Assembly (NCBI RefSeq): GCF_026210795.1
Contig: NC_089448.1
Location: forward strand, 2,480,001 to 2,544,000
Length of the DNA: 64,000 nt
Direction of reading: 5' to 3'
From: Rhizophagus irregularis
Taxonomy: Eukaryota; Glomeromycota; Glomeromycetes; Glomerales; Glomeraceae
Both the position numbers and the translations under genes were made by a program. The notes under the pieces were generated by a model, which saw only the letters and a program-made list of their open reading frames with translations, ran no database searches and was not told where the DNA came from. Positions 19,916 through 52,150 of the stretch are shown here, piece after piece (the first letter of the stretch is position 1; the number at the start of each line of letters is the position of its first letter).

Positions 19916-21717
19916 ATGGAATTTTATAGAGGATTATCTATTGACTTTAGTCATTTGCTGGACGAGTCTGATGATTATGACGTTATCATTTATGCTGGTA
20001 AAGAACCAAATGTTAGGAAATTCCACGCGCACACAGTTATTTTGCGTGCGAGATCTCCTTACTTTCGTAGAGCTTTGTCAAGAGATTGGGCTAAAAAAGA
20101 GAACGGTTCTATTGTTTTTCAGAAGCCGAACATAGCACACGAAGTATTTGATGTTATTTTAAAGTTAGTATAACATTATTATTTTGAAGTTGTATATTTA
20201 CAGTGTTTAGTCAATGTGTATGTATACCTTTTCTTTTTTTTGTTTTCTGGTAGGTATATTTACAGCGGCACAGCCGATTTACTCGCACAAGAAGGTGGGA
20301 TTATCCTTAATCTTTTGACTGCCTCTGATGAGTTAGTTCTTCAAGAATTGATCATTTATGCACAAGATCATCTTATTCAACAAAAATCCGACTGGTTGCA
20401 AGAAAATGTGATACAAGTTTTGCATACTGTTGGATATTTAGAAGCTTGTAAAGATTTACAAAATTTTTGTTTGGGTTTAATTTGTCAGGATCCTTATTGG
20501 TTATTCGAATCAAATAATTTTCGTTCATTGGATGAATCTGTTCTTATACCTCTATTAAAACGGGACGATCTTTTAATGGAAGAAATTGAAATTTGGGACC
20601 ATTTAATTGAGTGGGGAATTGCACAAAATCCAACACTAAGTGAAAATATTTCAACATGGTCTTCTGATGACTTTGAAGTATTGAAGAGTACCCTTGAACA
20701 ATGTATACCGTTAATTAGATATTTTAATATTGACTCTAGTGATTATTGGGATAAAGTGAGACCTTTTAGTCAAATTTTACCAAGTGATTTGCATGAAGTC
20801 CTCTTGCAATATTATTGTAAGCGAGGTAATATAAATTTAACCGATACAATTATATTACCACCAAGAAAGACTGGAATTCAATCAAATATTATAAAATTTA
20901 AACATATTTCTTTAATAGCAAAATGGATTGACAGAAAGGAAGGAAGTGAAACTAATTTAGAAAAGTCTAAATACGATTTTAATAGGGTTCTTTGTGGTTC
21001 AATTAGTGGCTTCACTGCCGCTAATTTTCACAAGAAATGTGATAACCAAGGTCCAACTTTAGTTGTAATTAAAGTAAAGGAAACCGGAGAGATTATTGGG
21101 GGTTATAATCCAATAAGTTGGAGAGGTTTAAATAACAATCTAGATGGTGGTTGGATGTCAGCAGCAGCTCCATCGTGGACTGTTTCAAATCGTCATCGTC
21201 CTTCTACTTTTGGAAGTTTTTCAAGATCTACTTATGAAGTAGGTCCTTATCAAAGTACCCTTAATAGTTTTATATTTTCATTAGGTGATGGAAAGGATCT
21301 TTCGAAAGCAAAAATTAGTCGAATTCTTCAAGATAATATGTCAACAGCTGTTTTTTCATCTCCACGGCATGGTCCTTGTTTTGGACAAAATGATTTACGA
21401 ATGAATGATAATTTTAACGAAGCTGAAACGTGTACATGTCAATGTTATGATTATGAAAGTGAAATAACTGAGAACCATAATTTTTCTGTTGAAGAATATG
21501 AAGTATTTCAAGTTGTGAATAAAGACGGACAAGAAACTTCAAATCAGGCTTCAACCTCACCAATGCAACAGATGCATCCTCCAAGACCTGAACTTACAAA
21601 TTATCCAACCGCTTGGTAAGAAAGAAAAAAAATTTTAATTTGCTACTTCGTCATTTCCTTAATTTTAAATATCGATTTTAATTTTTATTATTTAGGGGAG
21701 AATTCATGCATTTTTGA
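19916..21717 (+). CDS. BTB-BACK-TLDc domain protein
   Basis: Three exons (19916-20163, 20254-21615, 21696-21717) join in frame to a 543-residue protein. The BTB/POZ domain spans about residues 20-115 (DYDVIIYAGKE, KFHAHTVILRARSPYFR). A BACK-like helical segment follows. A TLDc domain lies at about 300-440 (SGFTAANFHKKCDNQGPTLV, IGGYNPISW). BTB-BACK proteins usually recruit substrates to Cullin-3 ubiquitin ligases; TLDc domains are linked to V-ATPase regulation and oxidative-stress resistance. The substrate here is unknown. This architecture is strongly expanded in Rhizophagus-type fungi (family knowledge). The tail ends after a Gln/Pro/Thr-rich segment. The last exon encodes only seven codons plus the stop. 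Confidence 0.88.
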
Positions 21718-27356: not shown

Positions 27357-29509
27357 TTATTTACTTCTGTCAAGTTCCAATTCAATTATACATCTATTCC
27401 TTATTAGTGCCAACATAGGCCAAGTAGATTGTTCTCCTTTCGAAATCCAATAGTCCAAAGATGAATAACTTGGATTAGAGAACAGGGTTTTAAAATCCTA
27501 AAAAAAAAAGTGAGAGAATTTATCAATTTAAGTTTTTATTAAAAATTGTGAAAAAAATATTGTACTTACCGAGAATGTAAGATAAGGAACAATGGTAACA
27601 TTTCCCGAAACCTTTTCATCAATCAAACCTCGGAAATTTTTTGGAAGTAAACCCATATGTCCAAGTTGATTGATTCGGTGTCTAAATTCAGTAGAAAAAA
27701 GATGAGCGCATTTAATCAATATATTACTACCAAATTGTTCCTTTGCTATGAAAGGAGCGATATACGGATTTGCTTGAGAGACGATGAAATGATTGACGTT
27801 AAACAATTCTGAAATTCTTGTCAACGGAGATTCACTCTCAGTCGGAACTGTATCCGACCACTTTCTCCATTTAATTTCAGTTGGAGCCCATTTCACAATA
27901 TTTCCAGCTTTATCTTTGGCCAACAGATCAACACTATCATAAAGTCCCATCATAGCAGTAGAAGCGCAAGCTGCACTACGTATTAATACGTTAGGTGCGG
28001 TCAAATAGTTAAGTAGTTGAGGAACTTCATATTTTCTAGTTGATGATACTGTGATGTTTAAGATCCTTTTTGTTTTAGCGTATGCTTCCTTTTTATATAT
28101 GTATAAAATAAAGGGTGATTTAAGAATTTTTTAATTAAAAAAAAATTAAAAAAGAGAATAAGAATAATAGAATAAGTTAATAAATTACTTCAAATGTGAG
28201 ATCTCCAACGTTACTTCGAACACAATCTTCCAACACTTTGACGTCCATAAAATAACCTAAATTTTTTTTAAAAGAAATGAATGAGAGTTAAACGATAAAG
28301 TCTTGAACCCAAATAAAATTTTTTTTTATTAAAAGATCATTTACCATGTTTTAAGAATCTACTTATTTTCCTTTTTATATTTCCTTTCTTTCCTTTCTTA
28401 GCAAAGGCACCTAAATCTACACCACCTTCTTCAAAAATACTTGGTAATTCATCATCAGTTCTAATACAAACTAAAGCGGCTATCAAAGCTCCAATGGCTG
28501 TACCACTAATAATTCTAGGTAATAGGCCATGTTTATATAAAGCTTTAACAACTCCTAAATGATATAAACCAAATGTTGCTCCACCATATAATACCAAAGC
28601 GGTACAACCGAATGATTGACGGGTATCACTTAAAAATTCTATTTTTGAATATTGTGGAAGATCTATGAAATCTTTTTCTGATATATATTCTAATTGCGTT
28701 ACCACCTCTTTTGTATAATCTTCTATCAATCTTTTGGTTCCTAAGTATGATCTACAAAATAATCTTGGATCGTTTATACCTCCCAAATTCCGTAAAAGAC
28801 CTGATCTTAAATTATAAATCATTGATAAAACATCATTTCTTTCATGAAGGTCTTTAAGATGAGTCAATCTTTTTTTAATCATAATATAATCATAGTATTG
28901 AGATGCCGGATCTTGTTTCCATTCATCATTTGCTAAAATAAATTTTTTAAAAAAAGTAAATTAAACAATCTCAGAAAAAACCACTTTGATCTATTTAGCT
29001 TACCTAAAAGACTATGATCAATGAAATTTCTCGTTAATATATATTTATATATTTTTTTTATTTTTAAAGAAAAAAAACAAATCACATATTTACTTGTCTA
29101 GCTCTTGTGCTTTTTTTTGCCATTCTGTGTATGTTTTCGCATGTTGCATTTCATTCCTTAGTATCTCCGCCGGTGTCTTTTTACGTCTCAATTTCTTGAA
29201 AAAGAGAAATAAAATTTAGAATCGATTTAAAATAATAAAATTTAGAATCAATTTAAAAATAATAATATTTAGAATCGATTTAAAATAATAAAATTTAGAA
29301 TCGATTTAAAATAAAAATTTTCAAAAAAAATAGCTTACTTGAATCCATAAATAAGAAACCTGTAATATCCGAATAACTACTGCGGATATTATTGAGGATA
29401 TAATAGTGAAAATTTTATTCTATTAAATAAAAAATGATATTGTTAAAAATAAAAATATATGTACATATATAAAAAAAATAAAATAAAATAAAATACGAAC
29501 TAGCAGCAT
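27357..29509 (-). CDS. Patatin-like (Tgl3/4/5-type) lipase homologue without the nucleophile serine
   Basis: This multi-exon protein has the fungal triacylglycerol-lipase architecture. A hydrophobic N-terminal helix lies near 29340-29425. Then comes the DUF3336-type segment (AKTYTEWQKKAQELD) and the patatin core (TALVLYGGATFGLYHLGVVK). The usual GxSxG nucleophile elbow reads SGTAIGALIAAL here: alanine replaces the catalytic serine. The downstream DG[S/A] region reads WSDTVPTESESPLTR, with the glycine after the aspartate lost, ahead of a well-conserved SELFNVNHFIVSQANPY. The last exon (ending GEQSTWPM and IIELELDRSK) matches the family. The ORF is otherwise open with proper splice sites, so a scaffold or regulatory pseudoenzyme is likelier than a pseudogene. 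The first exon (ATG-CTG-CTA before a GTTCGT donor) is tentative. Confidence 0.8.
29213..29318. repeat. 26-base minisatellite in a patatin intron
   Basis: Four tandem copies of TTTAGAATCGATTTAAAATA plus ATAAAA, 26-27 bases each, lie inside an intron of the patatin-like gene. One copy has CAATT in place of CGATT. Confidence 0.75.
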
Positions 29510-30539: not shown

Positions 30540-31235
30540 TTACGGAAATAATGAAAAAAATATTTCATCTTCTTTCGGTTCATCATATAATTCGAAATCG
30601 ACGTCAAATTTTGGAAAAGAGTTAACGCTCGTAGGAGGTATAATTGGCATCGAATTATTAACTAATGTCGTATTTATCGTTGTATTTATCGTTGTATTTT
30701 TCGTCGTATTTATCGTATTAATTATCGGATTATTTATAGTATTATTTTTTATCGTATGATTTATTTTTGATTCTTTTTTGTTTTCGTTGTTTTTTATCTT
30801 GACATATTTTCTCTTTGGACGATATTTTTCATGAAGTTCTTTGGAGGCCAAAGATAAGACTTCGAAGAATCGAATAACATTCGAAGGTTGATATTTCCAT
30901 TCTTTACTAGCATAATATGTTATTTCTCTTATAGTTAATTGTTGATTTTGATTTAAATTTTGTTTCTTAATTTTTGCGATATAATCCATTAGAAATAAAG
31001 TAAATGCACTCTGGGAGTTTTCAGGTGATCCATTTGACATTAATCTGGGAAGTAATAAAACGGGAAGGGATAATGTTAAATTATAAGGAGGTCCAGAAGT
31101 GACCGAAGGAGTATAATATGACATCAAAACTTGAAACGAAGTAGGTTGTGAATTTGTTAAAGTTGTTGGTGAAGTGAGAGAATTTTGGGTTTGAGGTTTA
31201 TCGTTAAGATAATTTTTTGAATTTGATTTCGGCAT
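30540..31235 (-). CDS. HMG-box protein A (degenerate box)
   Basis: Single-exon gene of 231 residues; ATG at 31235-31233 was chosen because the four upstream in-frame codons start with TTG. The shared family pre-motif PPYNLTL is at about 49-55. The HMG region spans about 72-145 (SAFTLFLMDYIAKI, ASKEWKYQPSNVIRFFEVLS) and ends in a basic PKRKYVKIK. The consensus PRPxN entry is replaced by SPENSQ, so DNA contacts in helix 1 may be altered. The tail has an unusual (INTT)n-like Asn/Thr/Ile repeat from about 170-195 and ends in acidic/aromatic FELYDEPKEDEIFFSLF. MATA-type HMG proteins are sequence-specific transcription factors; a target is not known. Confidence 0.75.
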   Translation of the reverse strand: MPKSNSKNYLNDKPQTQNSLTSPTTLTNSQPTSFQVLMSYYTPSVTSGPPYNLTLSLPVLLLPRLMSNGSPENSQSAFTLFLMDYIAKIKKQNLNQNQQLTIREITYYASKEWKYQPSNVIRFFEVLSLASKELHEKYRPKRKYVKIKNNENKKESKINHTIKNNTINNPIINTINTTKNTTINTTINTTLVNNSMPIIPPTSVNSFPKFDVDFELYDEPKEDEIFFSLFP

Positions 31236-33300
31236 TTTTTTTTCCAAAATTTCTTTACTTTTTTTCGATTTTAGAGGAAAGCAAATTTTTGCTAAAGAAA
31301 AAAAAGAAAAAAAAAGGGAAAAAAGTCTTTAAAATCATCTATTTATAAAAAAAGTACATATATATATTTATATATTAGTATATATATAATTAAAATACTC
31401 CTTTCCTCCGGTTGAATTGAAAAAAATGAACTCATTAGACCAAATTAGGTAACCGCAATCTCCGATCCTCAACATAATTTGATATGCTTTTATTACTTTT
31501 ACTACGTGACATAACAGGTAATTACAGTGAAATCAGCCCGAATATATGTTTCATCATATTCGGTTATCAATTTAGGGTATGATTAGGAATCTTGTTTATG
31601 CGTCATTTGCCCATTTTTGCTCAGTTTTCTTATTTAGGATTAGTCTTGGAATTATTTCTTAGCAGGGCAAGGTCTTGGTTATGTTTCACACCCTTTTAAA
31701 ATTCGTTTCAAAAAACTTATTCTCTTCAAAGAAAAAAAATAATAAAATAAATTAAAAAAAGAAATAAAATAAAAATATCTTTTTTTCTCATTGAAAAAAT
31801 TTACTTTTTACCCAGTTTACTAAAAAAAAAAAAAAAAAAAAAAAATTTCATTTCCTCACCCTTCTTTTCTTCGTTCTTTTCCTCCCCCCCACCATGGTCT
31901 CTTACAATTTCAATAACCTATAGGCTCGAGCGTGAAAATTTTTCCGAAAAAAATTATTGTAACAATAACAGAACTTAGGTGAAAGTAAAAAAAGAAATTT
32001 CACAAGATTTTCACAGAATTAAGGATTTTCTTTAGGAACAAAACCAATAGAAACCCGATTTTTTTTTGGTAAAATTTTTGTAGTAATTATGAGTAAAAAG
32101 AATAACAACAATATGTAACGTAAATCAATTTTAAAATGCATGCTAAATGAGTCAGTTATTTGCGCATACCTAGATTACTTTAATCGAATTCCCGTTTGAA
32201 TGTTGTTTTTTTTTACTACGCAATTTATGTACTTATAATACTCCGACCACCTTTTTAGGTTACTTTTTGAATACCTCTTTTTTTTTTGAATTGAATTTCA
32301 ACATCATATTACAATATATAATATATATTATTTATGTATTATAATGTATAATGTTTATGTATGTATATATTTATTATTTATTTAAAAGTAACACACACAT
32401 ATATATTACAGTTTAATTAAAAATCCATTCATTAGTTATGAACCTATGATAAAATTACAAAATTTAAAAAAATGTTATTGAGTTATCTTATCATCTTGAA
32501 TTTATCTGCATACTTACGTCATTTGTGAGTCATTAACTCCGTTGAATATTCGAGAGAATCCTAGAATTTATAAGTTTTAATTAGAATTATTAATCCCATT
32601 TTTTTTTCTGTTCGGAAACAACCGGATGTTAGCCCCGTCGGATTTGAGGCTGATACGTACTTGAAAAATTGTCAATAACAAAATGGGTAATTGTAATGGT
32701 AAATCTTTTGATGATCGAATATTAGTCAAGAACTCATGAAATTTTCTAGAAGTATAATAAAAACATAAAAACCGTAATCACAGGACTAAAAAGAATCATT
32801 TCGAAAAGTTACACAAAAAAGGAAATTACTAGAATTCTTTAAAGAAAATTTTTAAAGATTTTATTCAAATTTGTCCATGATTTACATATAATTGTTTTTT
32901 ATTGGATGATATATATATATTTTTTTTTTAAAAAAAAAAAACGTGATATATTCATATTTTAGTAATACTTCGGCCCTATTTGAAACGTTACTCTGTCTTA
33001 CTTTGTTAACTTACTTATTTTAGTTACTTGGTAAATCTTAAAATCTTACTATCCTTAAAAAAAAACATATTTTGAACTTATTTGACTTAAAAAGGAGATA
33101 TAAAACTATAAAAGTAAAAAAAAAAAAAAAATTAATTAATATATATATATATATATATACTATAAAAATACAGTATAAATTATACATGTATATAAATAAT
33201 ATATTAAAAAAAAAAAAAAAAAATTTTAATGTCTTAAAATAATCTTATTATATCTTATTTATCTTATTATAAACATATAAGGTAATTGCAACAAAGTTAA
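31236..33300. other. AT-rich spacer between HMG genes A and B
   Basis: No ORF of interest. It contains poly-A of about 23 bases near 31820-31843, a pyrimidine tract with CCCCCCACC at 31886-31894, and (TA)n at 33139-33160. Some GC-richer unique segments (31430-31700 and 32590-32680) have no recognised function. Confidence 0.45.
31341..31350 (-). promoter_or_regulatory. TATA box candidate of HMG gene A
   Basis: On the minus strand this reads TTTTATAAAT, about 105 bases before the start codon. Similar boxes occur at 85-110 bases before HMG genes B and D. Confidence 0.45.
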
Positions 33301-36233: not shown

Positions 36234-37466
36234 ATGCCTAAAATTAAATCTGTCAAATTACCCTCTAATATAAATATTTCTTCTTCTTCTTCTTTATCTA
36301 CCTCTCATTTTATTCCTCTTCAACCTGCTCCGGTAGCACCTGATGATGATACTTCTTCTCAACTTAATGAAATTCTCGTTTTTCCAAATAATTCTTCTCT
36401 TCTCAATGAGGAAGAAAATTTATTAATTAATGATCCTCCTTATAAACTTACTCTTTCATTAAAAGATTTATTATCCCCTGCAAGAAAAACTCGAAAAAAT
36501 AGAAGTAAATCTGATGATAAAGTTCCAAGACCTCAAAATGCTTGGGTATTATTTCGTAAAGATTATGAAGCAAATCAACGTGCTAATTTCCCTGATAAAG
36601 CTTTGAAAATGAAAAATGTTTCAACGGATGCTGGTGAGATTTGGAGAAATCATCCTGTAAAAGTTAAACGTTATTTTGAAACTTTATCAAGATTGGCTCA
36701 TGCTCAACATAAAATTTTATTTCCTAATTATAAATATTCCCCTAAAAAAAAGTCTATTATTAAAGAATCTATTCAAAAGGATTGGGTTTTTAAGGATAGT
36801 GTTAAACATTCTATTACTTTAGAATCTTCTACTCCTATTGTGGAACATGATCAAGAATCTTCTGTAGCTTATCATACTGATCATTCTGATTCTCCTCCCC
36901 TTTTAAATGTCGTCATTTCTCCTTCATCTCCTGAAGAATCTTGGAATTCTCCAATTACTATTAATTCTCCCTCTTCTCCTTCCTCAAATTTTATTAGTCC
37001 ATCTTCAACTATCACTTCAAATGATTCAGGTTTATATTATTCTTCCGTTACATCAATTCTTACTTATTCTGAAGAAACTTTGACAAATTTATCATCCTCT
37101 TCTGCAGCTTATTATAACTATCAACAAAATTTCACTTCAAATTTAACCGATTTGAATCAATCAAATTCTGGTTATCTTAATCTTGAGAATACTTCTATTA
37201 ATGATATCAATGATCCGGTTTTTATCAATGATGAAAATTTTTGGCAACATACATCAACTTTTTCAAATTTTGATAAATTAGATTCTATAAGTTCTTTTGA
37301 TTCTTTTGATATACAAGAACAACAACAACAACAACAACAACAACAAGAGCAACAAACTCCCGTTACTAATTGTGATGTTTTAATAGATGAAAGTTTAATG
37401 GGAAATTTATCAGACTTATCATCATCATATGATGATGATAATAATAATATTCATTATTTCTTTTAG
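36234..37466 (+). CDS. HMG-box protein C (long, polyQ)
   Basis: Single-exon gene of 410 residues, the longest of the cluster. A Ser-rich N-terminus is followed by the pre-motif DPPYKLTLSLKDLLSP at about 67-82. The HMG box spans about 98-168, with PRPQNAWVLFRKDY, a box core with EIWRNHPVKVKRYFETLSRL, and HKILFPNYKYSPKKK. The remaining 240 residues are Ser/Thr/Asn-rich and carry a glutamine tract at about 361-375 encoded by pure CAA repeats, ending in acidic Asp/Asn runs. That tail looks like a transactivation domain. The start lies eleven A's after the 5' flank, a typical A-rich leader. Best-preserved HMG box of the five. Confidence 0.87.
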   Translation: MPKIKSVKLPSNINISSSSSLSTSHFIPLQPAPVAPDDDTSSQLNEILVFPNNSSLLNEEENLLINDPPYKLTLSLKDLLSPARKTRKNRSKSDDKVPRPQNAWVLFRKDYEANQRANFPDKALKMKNVSTDAGEIWRNHPVKVKRYFETLSRLAHAQHKILFPNYKYSPKKKSIIKESIQKDWVFKDSVKHSITLESSTPIVEHDQESSVAYHTDHSDSPPLLNVVISPSSPEESWNSPITINSPSSPSSNFISPSSTITSNDSGLYYSSVTSILTYSEETLTNLSSSSAAYYNYQQNFTSNLTDLNQSNSGYLNLENTSINDINDPVFINDENFWQHTSTFSNFDKLDSISSFDSFDIQEQQQQQQQQQEQQTPVTNCDVLIDESLMGNLSDLSSSYDDDNNNIHYFF

Positions 37467-49113: not shown

Positions 49114-51278
49114 TTACATATTTATATTGTTCACTTTACAATAATTTATTGCTTCCTCGTATTTTTTACTAGCAGCCATTATCATATAATATTTACCCAT
49201 TTCATTATTATTGTTCGCGAAGTAATAAGTAGCTACATTAAACATAGCTACAAGATGATCATTATTAGCGGCTTTAAGAAGATATTCGATCGCTACATCC
49301 ATATCTTTTTCAACGCCTTTTCCTTGCATAGCCATTAATGCATAACGAAGTTGCGCATCAGGATATTCATCACCACGGTCTGCAGCTTCCTTGTAAAGAT
49401 TGGCAGTAATTTTATATCTCTCTCCTTGAGAACATATAAGGTCAGACCAACCTTTTGAAATATAATAAGCCTTATAATATTTTGCCTTTGGATTACCCAT
49501 ATTAGCATAAGCATCAAAGCATTTGTAAATTATACTCTTATCCATGGTACCTTTTTTATGTTCCTCAACTGCTTTGTCAATCGTCAAATAATTAAACGAA
49601 CCCCAATTGAACAATGCAGTATCTTTTCGCACTGGAACACGTTTTTTGATGGATACGGGACGACTCGCGGGACTTTCAGCATCATAACTGTGAAAAATAT
49701 CCTGAAGAGCCGTTAACATCTTTGAAAATATAGGTCGAAGACCTGGATTTTGATCAACAGCGCTAGTCACAAGTTCTTGATATCTTTCTGGAATACCAGT
49801 ATTGGGTGTAAACGGTTCTCTATACCCGTCTATTACTTTTTGTGTTATTTCCATAAAGTCTTCGTATTGTGAATATGGAGTTCTACATTCGGCGATTTCC
49901 CAAAGAAGAATGCCAAAACTGTAAACTTCGCATTTAGTATCATATTTTCTTTTCGTATCCATTACTTCTCCTGTCATTCCTCTTCTCAACATTTCAGGAG
50001 AACTATGTCGAACACATTCTTTATCCACTGCTAGATTATTTGTAGCTGCTTCAATTCCTCTACTTACTTTAAAATTTGTTATTTTCGCAATATAACGATC
50101 TGTAATTACGATATTTTCGGATCTAATATCTCGATGAACGATCTACACGAAAAAGGAATTTTTAATCATATCTTAGAAATCCTTAATAAAAATATTTAAA
50201 TTACTATGATTATTACCTTAACAGCATTAAGGAAATTCAACCCTTTAGCTATATCATAAGCAAATCCTAACCTCACTTTAATTGCACTATTTGGTTCACT
50301 GCCTGAGAGATATTCACGTAAATTTTTATGTTCCGCCCATTCAGTTACTAAATAATATTTATCACTTCCATCAGTAATACCATAGAAGTGAATAATATTT
50401 TGACAATCTTTAAGTTTTTTAAGTATTGTGACTTGATTTTTAACCATATTAAAATGACCCTTTTCTACAGTTTTAAAAGCAAATTCTTCTTTAGTTTTTA
50501 CATGAATATACTTTCTCAATTTATCACCTCGAAAAATTACTGTCTCTTCATAATCATCGAATGGAAGAAGAGACTCATGAAAGATACTATCGATTTTCGT
50601 TTGATTTGCGCCTTTATCACCGAGACTTTGCATAGTAATTGCCATTGCACTAACTTTTTCGACAATGTAAGAAACTTTTTGGTCCACATTAGTGATATTC
50701 ATGCACGCACTATCCATTTTCTTGTTGGCATCAGTAATACTTTCAGCTAAAGCTTCTTGAAACTTTGTAAGTTCCTTAAGGTCATCTTGCAAAATTTTTC
50801 TTTCTTTTTCTGCATTAACCCTAAAATCGACCATTAGGGTGAGATTTAATAATTGAATACTCAATTCATATTCTTTACATAAATTGTTAAACGATGATTC
50901 AATTGTTTGAGCTCCTAAAAATTTTTGCACTTTATTATATTGAGTTATTACATCTGCATAATTTTTCATTTTTTGAAGAACTTGAACTAATCTTTGTAAA
51001 TTATAATAATGTTTTGAAGTATATAAATCATCTTCTCGCAAAATGCTAATTGCGGAATGTGCCGCAGCAACACGTTCCATCAAAAGTTTGGTAATTTTTT
51101 TATTATGTTGAGCCGTACTATATAAATCTACAATCCTTTTAAGTATATCGGCTACATCTTTAATAAGTGGGACGAATTGTGCGAAAGGAATAACTACTGT
51201 TGATACTGTTATATCAGCAGCGGAAGCAATCATTCCATCGGTTATAGATTCTGCTCCATCAATTTCAGTCATTTTCAT
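49114..51278 (-). CDS. MLKL/HeLo-like helical domain - pseudokinase - Sel1 repeat protein
   Basis: Two exons (50217-51278 and 49114-50142) join in phase 0 to 696 residues. Residues ~25-175 form an all-helical N-terminal region (FVPLIKDVADILKRIVDLYS) resembling the MLKL/HeLo-type four-helix bundle. A coiled brace follows to ~230. The kinase-like domain covers ~240-485. The ATP lysine (FAFK269) and HRD (HRD359) remain. The glycine loop is degenerate, the alpha-C glutamate position is Q282 (KNQVTIL), and DFG is replaced by N377-F-K (ITNFKVSR). SPEML and YSFGILLWEI are retained. Sel1-like repeats occupy ~540-690 (AQLRYALMAMQGKGVEKD). Loss of three catalytic elements argues for a pseudokinase, perhaps a signalling switch or membrane-acting effector as in MLKL. 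That function is inferred. Confidence 0.85.
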
Positions 51279-52017: not shown

Positions 52018-52150
52018 AGTAGATTAGTTAGGGTTATGATTGGGTTAGAGTTGAGTTAGGAATTTAGGGATTTAGGATTAAGGATTAGAATTAGGGTTAG
52101 AATTAGGATTATGGTTAGGGGATTAGGATTAGGGTAAGGTTTGGGTTTGC
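52018..52150 (+). repeat. Interstitial telomere-like TTAGGG stretch
   Basis: Over about 130 bases, five exact TTAGGG hexamers are mixed with TTAGGA, TTAGAG and TTAGAA variants, all in one orientation. A weaker relative occurs at about 55645-55730. It may be a decayed telomere relic or a simple repeat. Confidence 0.6.

Follow-up and report, generated by a model that had tools for sequence, protein, structure and literature searches.

A Rhizophagus irregularis gene family with an MLKL-like helical bundle, a predicted pseudokinase and an exchangeable C-terminus

In animal MLKL (PDB 4btf, 6zvo, 6vc0), a four-helix bundle, a helical brace and a TKL pseudokinase follow one another along the chain. 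The same order, with a helical linker where the brace would be, is found in a predicted protein of 696 amino acids from the arbuscular mycorrhizal (AM) fungus Rhizophagus irregularis, encoded on the reverse strand at positions 51278..49114 of the window, that is, of the whole stretch of 64,000 nucleotides that was analysed (positions 2,480,001 to 2,544,000 of contig NC_089448.1, RefSeq assembly GCF_026210795.1). The likeness extends to the sequence kinship of both domains and to the predicted fold of the helical core. Unlike animal MLKL, the window protein has a C-terminal Sel1 part and approximately 40 residues before the bundle, and its family, present in dozens of copies, appears to have been inactivated through the changes of DFG to NFK and of the αC Glu to Gln, with HRD kept. 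In human MLKL, the departures from the kinase consensus at HRD and DFG are of another kind. To our knowledge, plant MLKL (AtMLKL2, PDB 6lba) and the RPW8-type coiled-coil domains (NRG1.1, 7l7v) belong to proteins without Sel1.

In fungi, the HeLo, HeLo-like, Goodbye and basidiomycete MLKL-like domains share a four-helix-bundle superfamily with the N-terminus of the window protein (PMC9815663; PMC12881547), and some HELL domains are reported from proteins that also have a kinase or pseudokinase domain (PMC12881547). Compared with the HeLo-type systems, no nucleotide-binding leucine-rich repeat (NLR) or amyloid part is seen in the window gene, in which no search was aimed at amyloid motifs. Among the fungi mapped, MLKL homologues, bearing Sel1, have been reported only in Glomeromycotina (TCDB 1.A.105; PMC8778642), by blastp against TCDB with those alignments uncurated, and these proteins very probably belong to the same family as the window gene. 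The basic make-up of an MLKL homologue with Sel1 is therefore already in print as one sentence, judging from the statements in the accessible sections of PMC8778642 and PMC12881547, and an earlier note on this DNA, made from the sequence alone, went too far in stating that no protein of this exact make-up was described. In the same sections, the account of MLKL homologues in PMC8778642 holds no analysis of the bundle, the pseudokinase or the C-terminus. Four points are apparently new, as none of them was found in the accessible parts of the literature searched: that both domains are kin to those of MLKL, that the Gln/Asn signature is inherited, that bundle and pseudokinase form an obligate pair and that a kinase can take the place of Sel1. 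Expansions of fungal pseudokinases were reportedly described by Kwon et al. in 2019.

The MLKL-like bundle and the pseudokinase

The N-terminal four-helix bundle (residues 41–157, 50808..51158) is, judged from sequence, homologous to that of MLKL at the level of the family. When the PDB was searched with a profile of 16 fungal N-termini, the top seven matches were all MLKL chains (E 7.5e-9 to 6.1e-7; next match 0.087), and a profile of 30 sequences with the window as its first row gave MLKL as its top seven as well (2.1e-5 to 3.2e-4; next 0.044). A comparison of the window clade (eight sequences) with 13 of the 16, having no common member, aligned the two sets over 182 columns with 99.9% probability (E 1.3e-32). 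The 16-member profile (A3), composed of 14 of the 17 extra fetched N-termini together with L028 and L033, is not fully independent of Pfam because its members were picked by Pfam MLKL_N score and thus drawn from high scorers. L060, which looked unlike the others, L063, a near copy of L061, and L069 were excluded from it, and profile A4 was built without L060 and L063.

The Pfam MLKL_N model matched 23 of the 25 aligned N-termini of the family at E ≤0.01. Across the genome, it found 71 places at E ≤0.001, 61 of them above the cut-off (five of these only with in-frame neighbours), and it found no place in 14 control genomes. The relatives at C20:2333401, C20:2087494, C20:2095087 and C20:2107047 are all among the 71, above the cut-off. 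Searched over the genome, the window N-terminus itself gave 134 places at E ≤0.1, including four on the same contig at 51% identity. In a Foldseek search of the whole PDB with an alignment-free model of the helical core of the window protein, the MLKL executioner domain ranked first and seven of the top nine chains were MLKL, with a best E value of only 0.052.

Some results weigh against this assignment for the window protein. The MLKL_N match at residues 41–157, with an E value of 2.9e-4 for the full protein, reached 4.8e-5 and 23.3 bits for residues 1–242 alone, below the cut-off of 27. Profile A1, which comprises 24 of the 28 N-domain segments found plus the window and is weighted to the window clade, reached MLKL in the PDB only at E 0.74–0.82, and with profile A5, built from the eight closest sequences, MLKL was not found there up to E 10. 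The window's own stretch is missing from the 71 places, and a phmmer search of the PDB with its N-terminus did not find MLKL up to E 10. An earlier, low-confidence single-sequence model, with a predicted local distance difference test (pLDDT) of 64.7 and a predicted template modelling score (pTM) of 0.40, retrieved generic bundles, with MLKL absent among the 50 best structural matches listed.

HeLo and HELLP domains had been named in the earlier note as relatives, and this particular kinship was not supported, as Pfam HeLo matched one of the 25 N-termini (E 0.0043) against 23 for MLKL_N and had no match in the window protein; HeLo/HELLP was accordingly dropped as the main label.

A helical linker (residues 158–242, 50553..50807) lies at the position of the MLKL brace, as indicated by a low-confidence model and a partial alignment within the family, and a helix covers residues 123–222 in the single-sequence model. 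The N-terminal extension (residues 1–40, 51159..51278; pLDDT <50 in that model) includes the most hydrophobic 19-mer of the protein, residues 21–39, which adjoins the bundle and is borderline at a mean Kyte-Doolittle value of 1.63. Some form of a hydrophobic stretch before the bundle occurs in most family members. A membrane role would fit this stretch, yet it could equally be a buried helix, comparable with the extra N-terminal helix of basidiomycete MLKL-like domains (PMC9815663).

The domain that follows the helical linker (residues 243–500, 49705..50552, spanning an intron; Pfam PK_Tyr_Ser-Thr at residues 261–499 of the spliced protein, E 1.8e-38) is, according to PDB searches and a motif tally, a TKL-type kinase fold near the pseudokinase of MLKL with several of its catalytic motifs lost. 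Its best natural match in the PDB was the MLKL pseudokinase 6vc0 (E 6.2e-23), behind an engineered Src-Abl ancestor. With a seven-member family profile, MLKL made up 11 of the best 60 chains; entries of JAK1, EGFR, ZAK/MLT and B-Raf ranked above the first MLKL chain, those of ZAK/MLT and B-Raf above or level. When the DFG kinase of a fused relative was searched as a control, MLKL was absent among the best 60.

In the window protein, FAFK keeps the VAIK Lys (Lys269), NQVT carries Gln282 (50433..50435) in place of the αC Glu, HRDIRSEN is kept (HRD triad, residues 357–359, 50128..50136), NFK (residues 377–379, 50068..50076) stands at the DFG site, and GxGxxG is lacking; the Gln, the NFK and the missing glycine loop agree with the earlier reading. 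With HRD and the catalytic-loop Asn intact, the domain is only partly degraded. Among 21 kinase units hand-selected from 20 fetched loci, the DFG Asp position is occupied by Asn in 20 and by Ser in one, and the αC Glu position by Gln in 19, Leu in one and Glu in one. The HRD Asp is kept in 19 of the 21 and the catalytic-loop Asn (Asn364) in all of them; the VAIK Lys is kept in 16, some of the remaining five being misaligned in this alignment. Since the Gln and Asn changes are common to the relatives, while separate kinases at eight of these loci retain DFG, they are inherited traits of the family. Sequencing error as the source of NFK and Gln, which according to the earlier note close homologues with intact DFG and Glu would have revealed, is ruled out by the same changes across the relatives.

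Domain pairing and the exchangeable C-terminus

In a genome-wide search with the catalytic exon alone, 66 places reached E ≤1e-10 among the 150 of 2,083 candidates that were scored. When these were compared with the 134 N-domain places (E ≤0.1), an N-domain place was located upstream on the same strand within 1.5 kb of 63 of the 66 and within 3 kb of 64, and at neither distance was there one on the opposite strand. In a control with random placement, for which the lengths of contigs C9, C17 and C23 were approximated, the outcome was a mean of 0.34 and a maximum of three co-occurrences in 500 draws. Bundle and pseudokinase thus occur as a pair, as they do in MLKL. By the searches made with either domain, the MLKL-like make-up looks like homology. 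The MLKL-like architecture proposed in the earlier note is supported by this pairing together with the Foldseek search of the window core and the family profile, and the N-terminus, on whose fold the proposal was staked, resembles the MLKL bundle in both structure prediction and profiles. The bundle-pseudokinase unit is densely clustered on contigs C15 and C29. No relative was found among 29 pattern matches in viral contigs or among 21 matches in bacterial and archaeal genomes.

Downstream of the pseudokinase, a linker (residues 501–575, 49480..49704) leads to the Sel1-like part (residues 576–696, 49117..49479), which is indicated by Pfam and by tblastn of relatives. Just one repeat, the best one at residues 615–650, comes near the curated Pfam cut-off (E 7.3e-7, 30.0 bits, slightly below 30.7), which refines the earlier mention of repeats.

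The C-terminus of the family is, by the domain content of the loci, exchangeable between a Sel1 part and a kinase. At 13 of the 20 fetched loci, a Sel1 part lies downstream of the pseudokinase; at five (L040, L045, L048, L050 and L051) there is a same-strand kinase with DFG and no Sel1 match; and at two (L056 and L058) N-domains occur with a DFG kinase and no pseudokinase match. In L040 and L048, a single open frame runs from the NF motif of the pseudokinase via its C-lobe to the glycine loop, Lys and αC Glu of the next kinase. The join in L045, L050 and L051 requires a predicted intron with several possible solutions, and L050 has a stop codon in the second N-lobe. The kinase is thus apparently fused in cis to the pseudokinase in some relatives. 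L048 (C1:396500-405000) and L040 (C20:2084500-2091500) carry three to four MLKL_N-type bundles followed by the pseudokinase and a kinase in which the glycine loop, Lys, Glu and DFG are all intact, and several bundles stand in tandem within one frame at C1:400837-402645 and C20:2087395-2088678. The one fused kinase searched against the PDB was closest to ZAK/DLK, ABL and JAK entries, with RIPK3 absent among its best 60 matches. No report of a bundle-pseudokinase-kinase fusion was found in the accessible parts of the literature searched, where hardly any searching was aimed at the fusion by name.

The Sel1 part had been proposed to receive the signal, and a fast-changing receptor is not what the ratios of non-synonymous to synonymous substitution (dN/dS) suggest. 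Between the window gene and four relatives, dN/dS was 0.27–0.37 in the pseudokinase, 0.30–0.34 in the Sel1 part, 0.25–0.45 in the brace, 0.37–0.58 in the linker and 0.43–0.58 in the bundle, and 0.12 and 0.64 in the short N-terminal extension where estimable; all these values are rough because synonymous change is high. The Sel1 part appears to be among the more constrained parts, with no sign of being the fast-evolving one, which weakens the idea of a fast sensor.

Proposed function and its alternatives

The window protein may be an MLKL-type switch built from the bundle (41–157), the brace (158–242), the pseudokinase (243–500) and the Sel1 part (576–696), a reading to which we give about an even chance. 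Sequence and models show the parts, the order in which they stand, their conservation in this large family and the common Gln/Asn changes; the latch, the membrane action and the permeabilisation are inferred. The pseudokinase would no longer phosphorylate and would serve as a latch, and an upstream kinase, acting in trans on the window protein and apparently fused in cis in some relatives, would alter its shape. The freed bundle might then oligomerise and act at a membrane, while the Sel1 part would most likely serve to dock it onto a partner. This would most likely end in permeabilisation of the hyphal compartment as a defence or non-self reaction.

Cytoplasm and nuclei are shared between the hyphae of AM fungi, which also host bacteria and viruses. 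The MLKL-like build of this large fungal family suggests, without proving, a necroptosis-like machinery of its own. A broader and rather unlikely extension is that AM fungi possess a necroptosis-like system of dozens of MLKL-type proteins with a swappable regulator, in which the Sel1-tailed members await a kinase in trans and in others an active kinase is part of the chain, behind the bundles and the pseudokinase, much as though the upstream kinase had been joined to its MLKL-like substrate in one self-contained switch; such a system could police non-self fusion or microbes in the shared cytoplasm. If the function is true, a deep branch of the fungi would possess MLKL-type execution in the form of an expanded gene family, the cis fusion would offer a one-chain system to study the opening of the latch, and the family would supply candidates for the genes behind non-self and defence reactions in AM fungi.

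Alternatively, the bundle may be a non-lytic module for oligomerisation or docking in a scaffold of the expanded kinase signalling, with the pseudokinase and Sel1 gathering partners and no attack on membranes. We regard this as possible though doubtful. The tandem bundles within one frame and the fusion of the bundle-pseudokinase unit with a kinase whose motifs are intact are consistent with it, as is the joint expansion of the Sel1 and kinase families in R. irregularis (PMC8647823). The expanded kinase repertoire is reported to comprise 2,533 members (PMC10234402). However, the top model and family-profile matches of the bundle are to the MLKL executioner domain and not to an adaptor, and a hydrophobic stretch, borderline only, lies directly before it.

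It is quite improbable that the kinase domain is alive, binding ATP and phosphorylating by an unusual route as an active MLKL-shaped kinase. The kept VAIK Lys, HRD and catalytic-loop Asn would allow it, but the metal-binding DFG Asp is replaced in every unit of the tally, the αC Glu in nearly all and the glycine loop is lost, while DFG is retained in other kinases of these loci. Least probable of all is a transposon-borne, mostly functionless family with a drifting window copy. The large copy number would fit it, as would the ratios of close same-contig pairs, which in some domains, above all the linker, range from 0.3 to 1.7 and beyond; among closer pairs, the linker and the brace show values as high as 1.7 and 2.2, based on few changes. 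Against it stand open frames, correct splice sites, conserved motifs and a dN/dS of the window gene well below 1 against the four relatives in the estimable domains.

Gene structure and neighbouring features

The gene begins with an ATG at 51278 and ends with a stop at 49114–49116. Exon 1 (50217..51278, residues 1–354) and exon 2 (49114..50142, residues 355–696 and the stop) are open frames separated by a predicted 74-nucleotide GT..AG intron (50143..50216) inside the kinase domain, directly 5′ of VHRD. In tblastn, the matches of relatives are likewise interrupted near residue 355, which fits the predicted position. The succession of helical N-terminus, linker, kinase fold and Sel1 described in the earlier note is borne out by the coordinates, the open frames and Pfam. 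Degenerate TTAGGG-like repeats, internal to the contig, lie immediately upstream of the gene (52020–52150). An Rfam scan of the window gave no matches.

Elsewhere in the window, a cluster of five HMG-box-like open reading frames (ORFs) occupies both strands between 30540 and 44549. Pfam HMG_box was confirmed at 36234–37466 (E 2.7e-9) and was weak at 30540–31247, and the other three were judged by eye. The nucleophile elbow of patatins is expected to read GxSxG. In an exon with DUF3336 and a patatin lipase-like domain (28337–28882, reverse strand), the elbow reads GTAIG, and the catalytic Ser may therefore be missing. The genome holds four related places. An ORF with BACK and TLDc domains is located at 20216–21619 on the forward strand.
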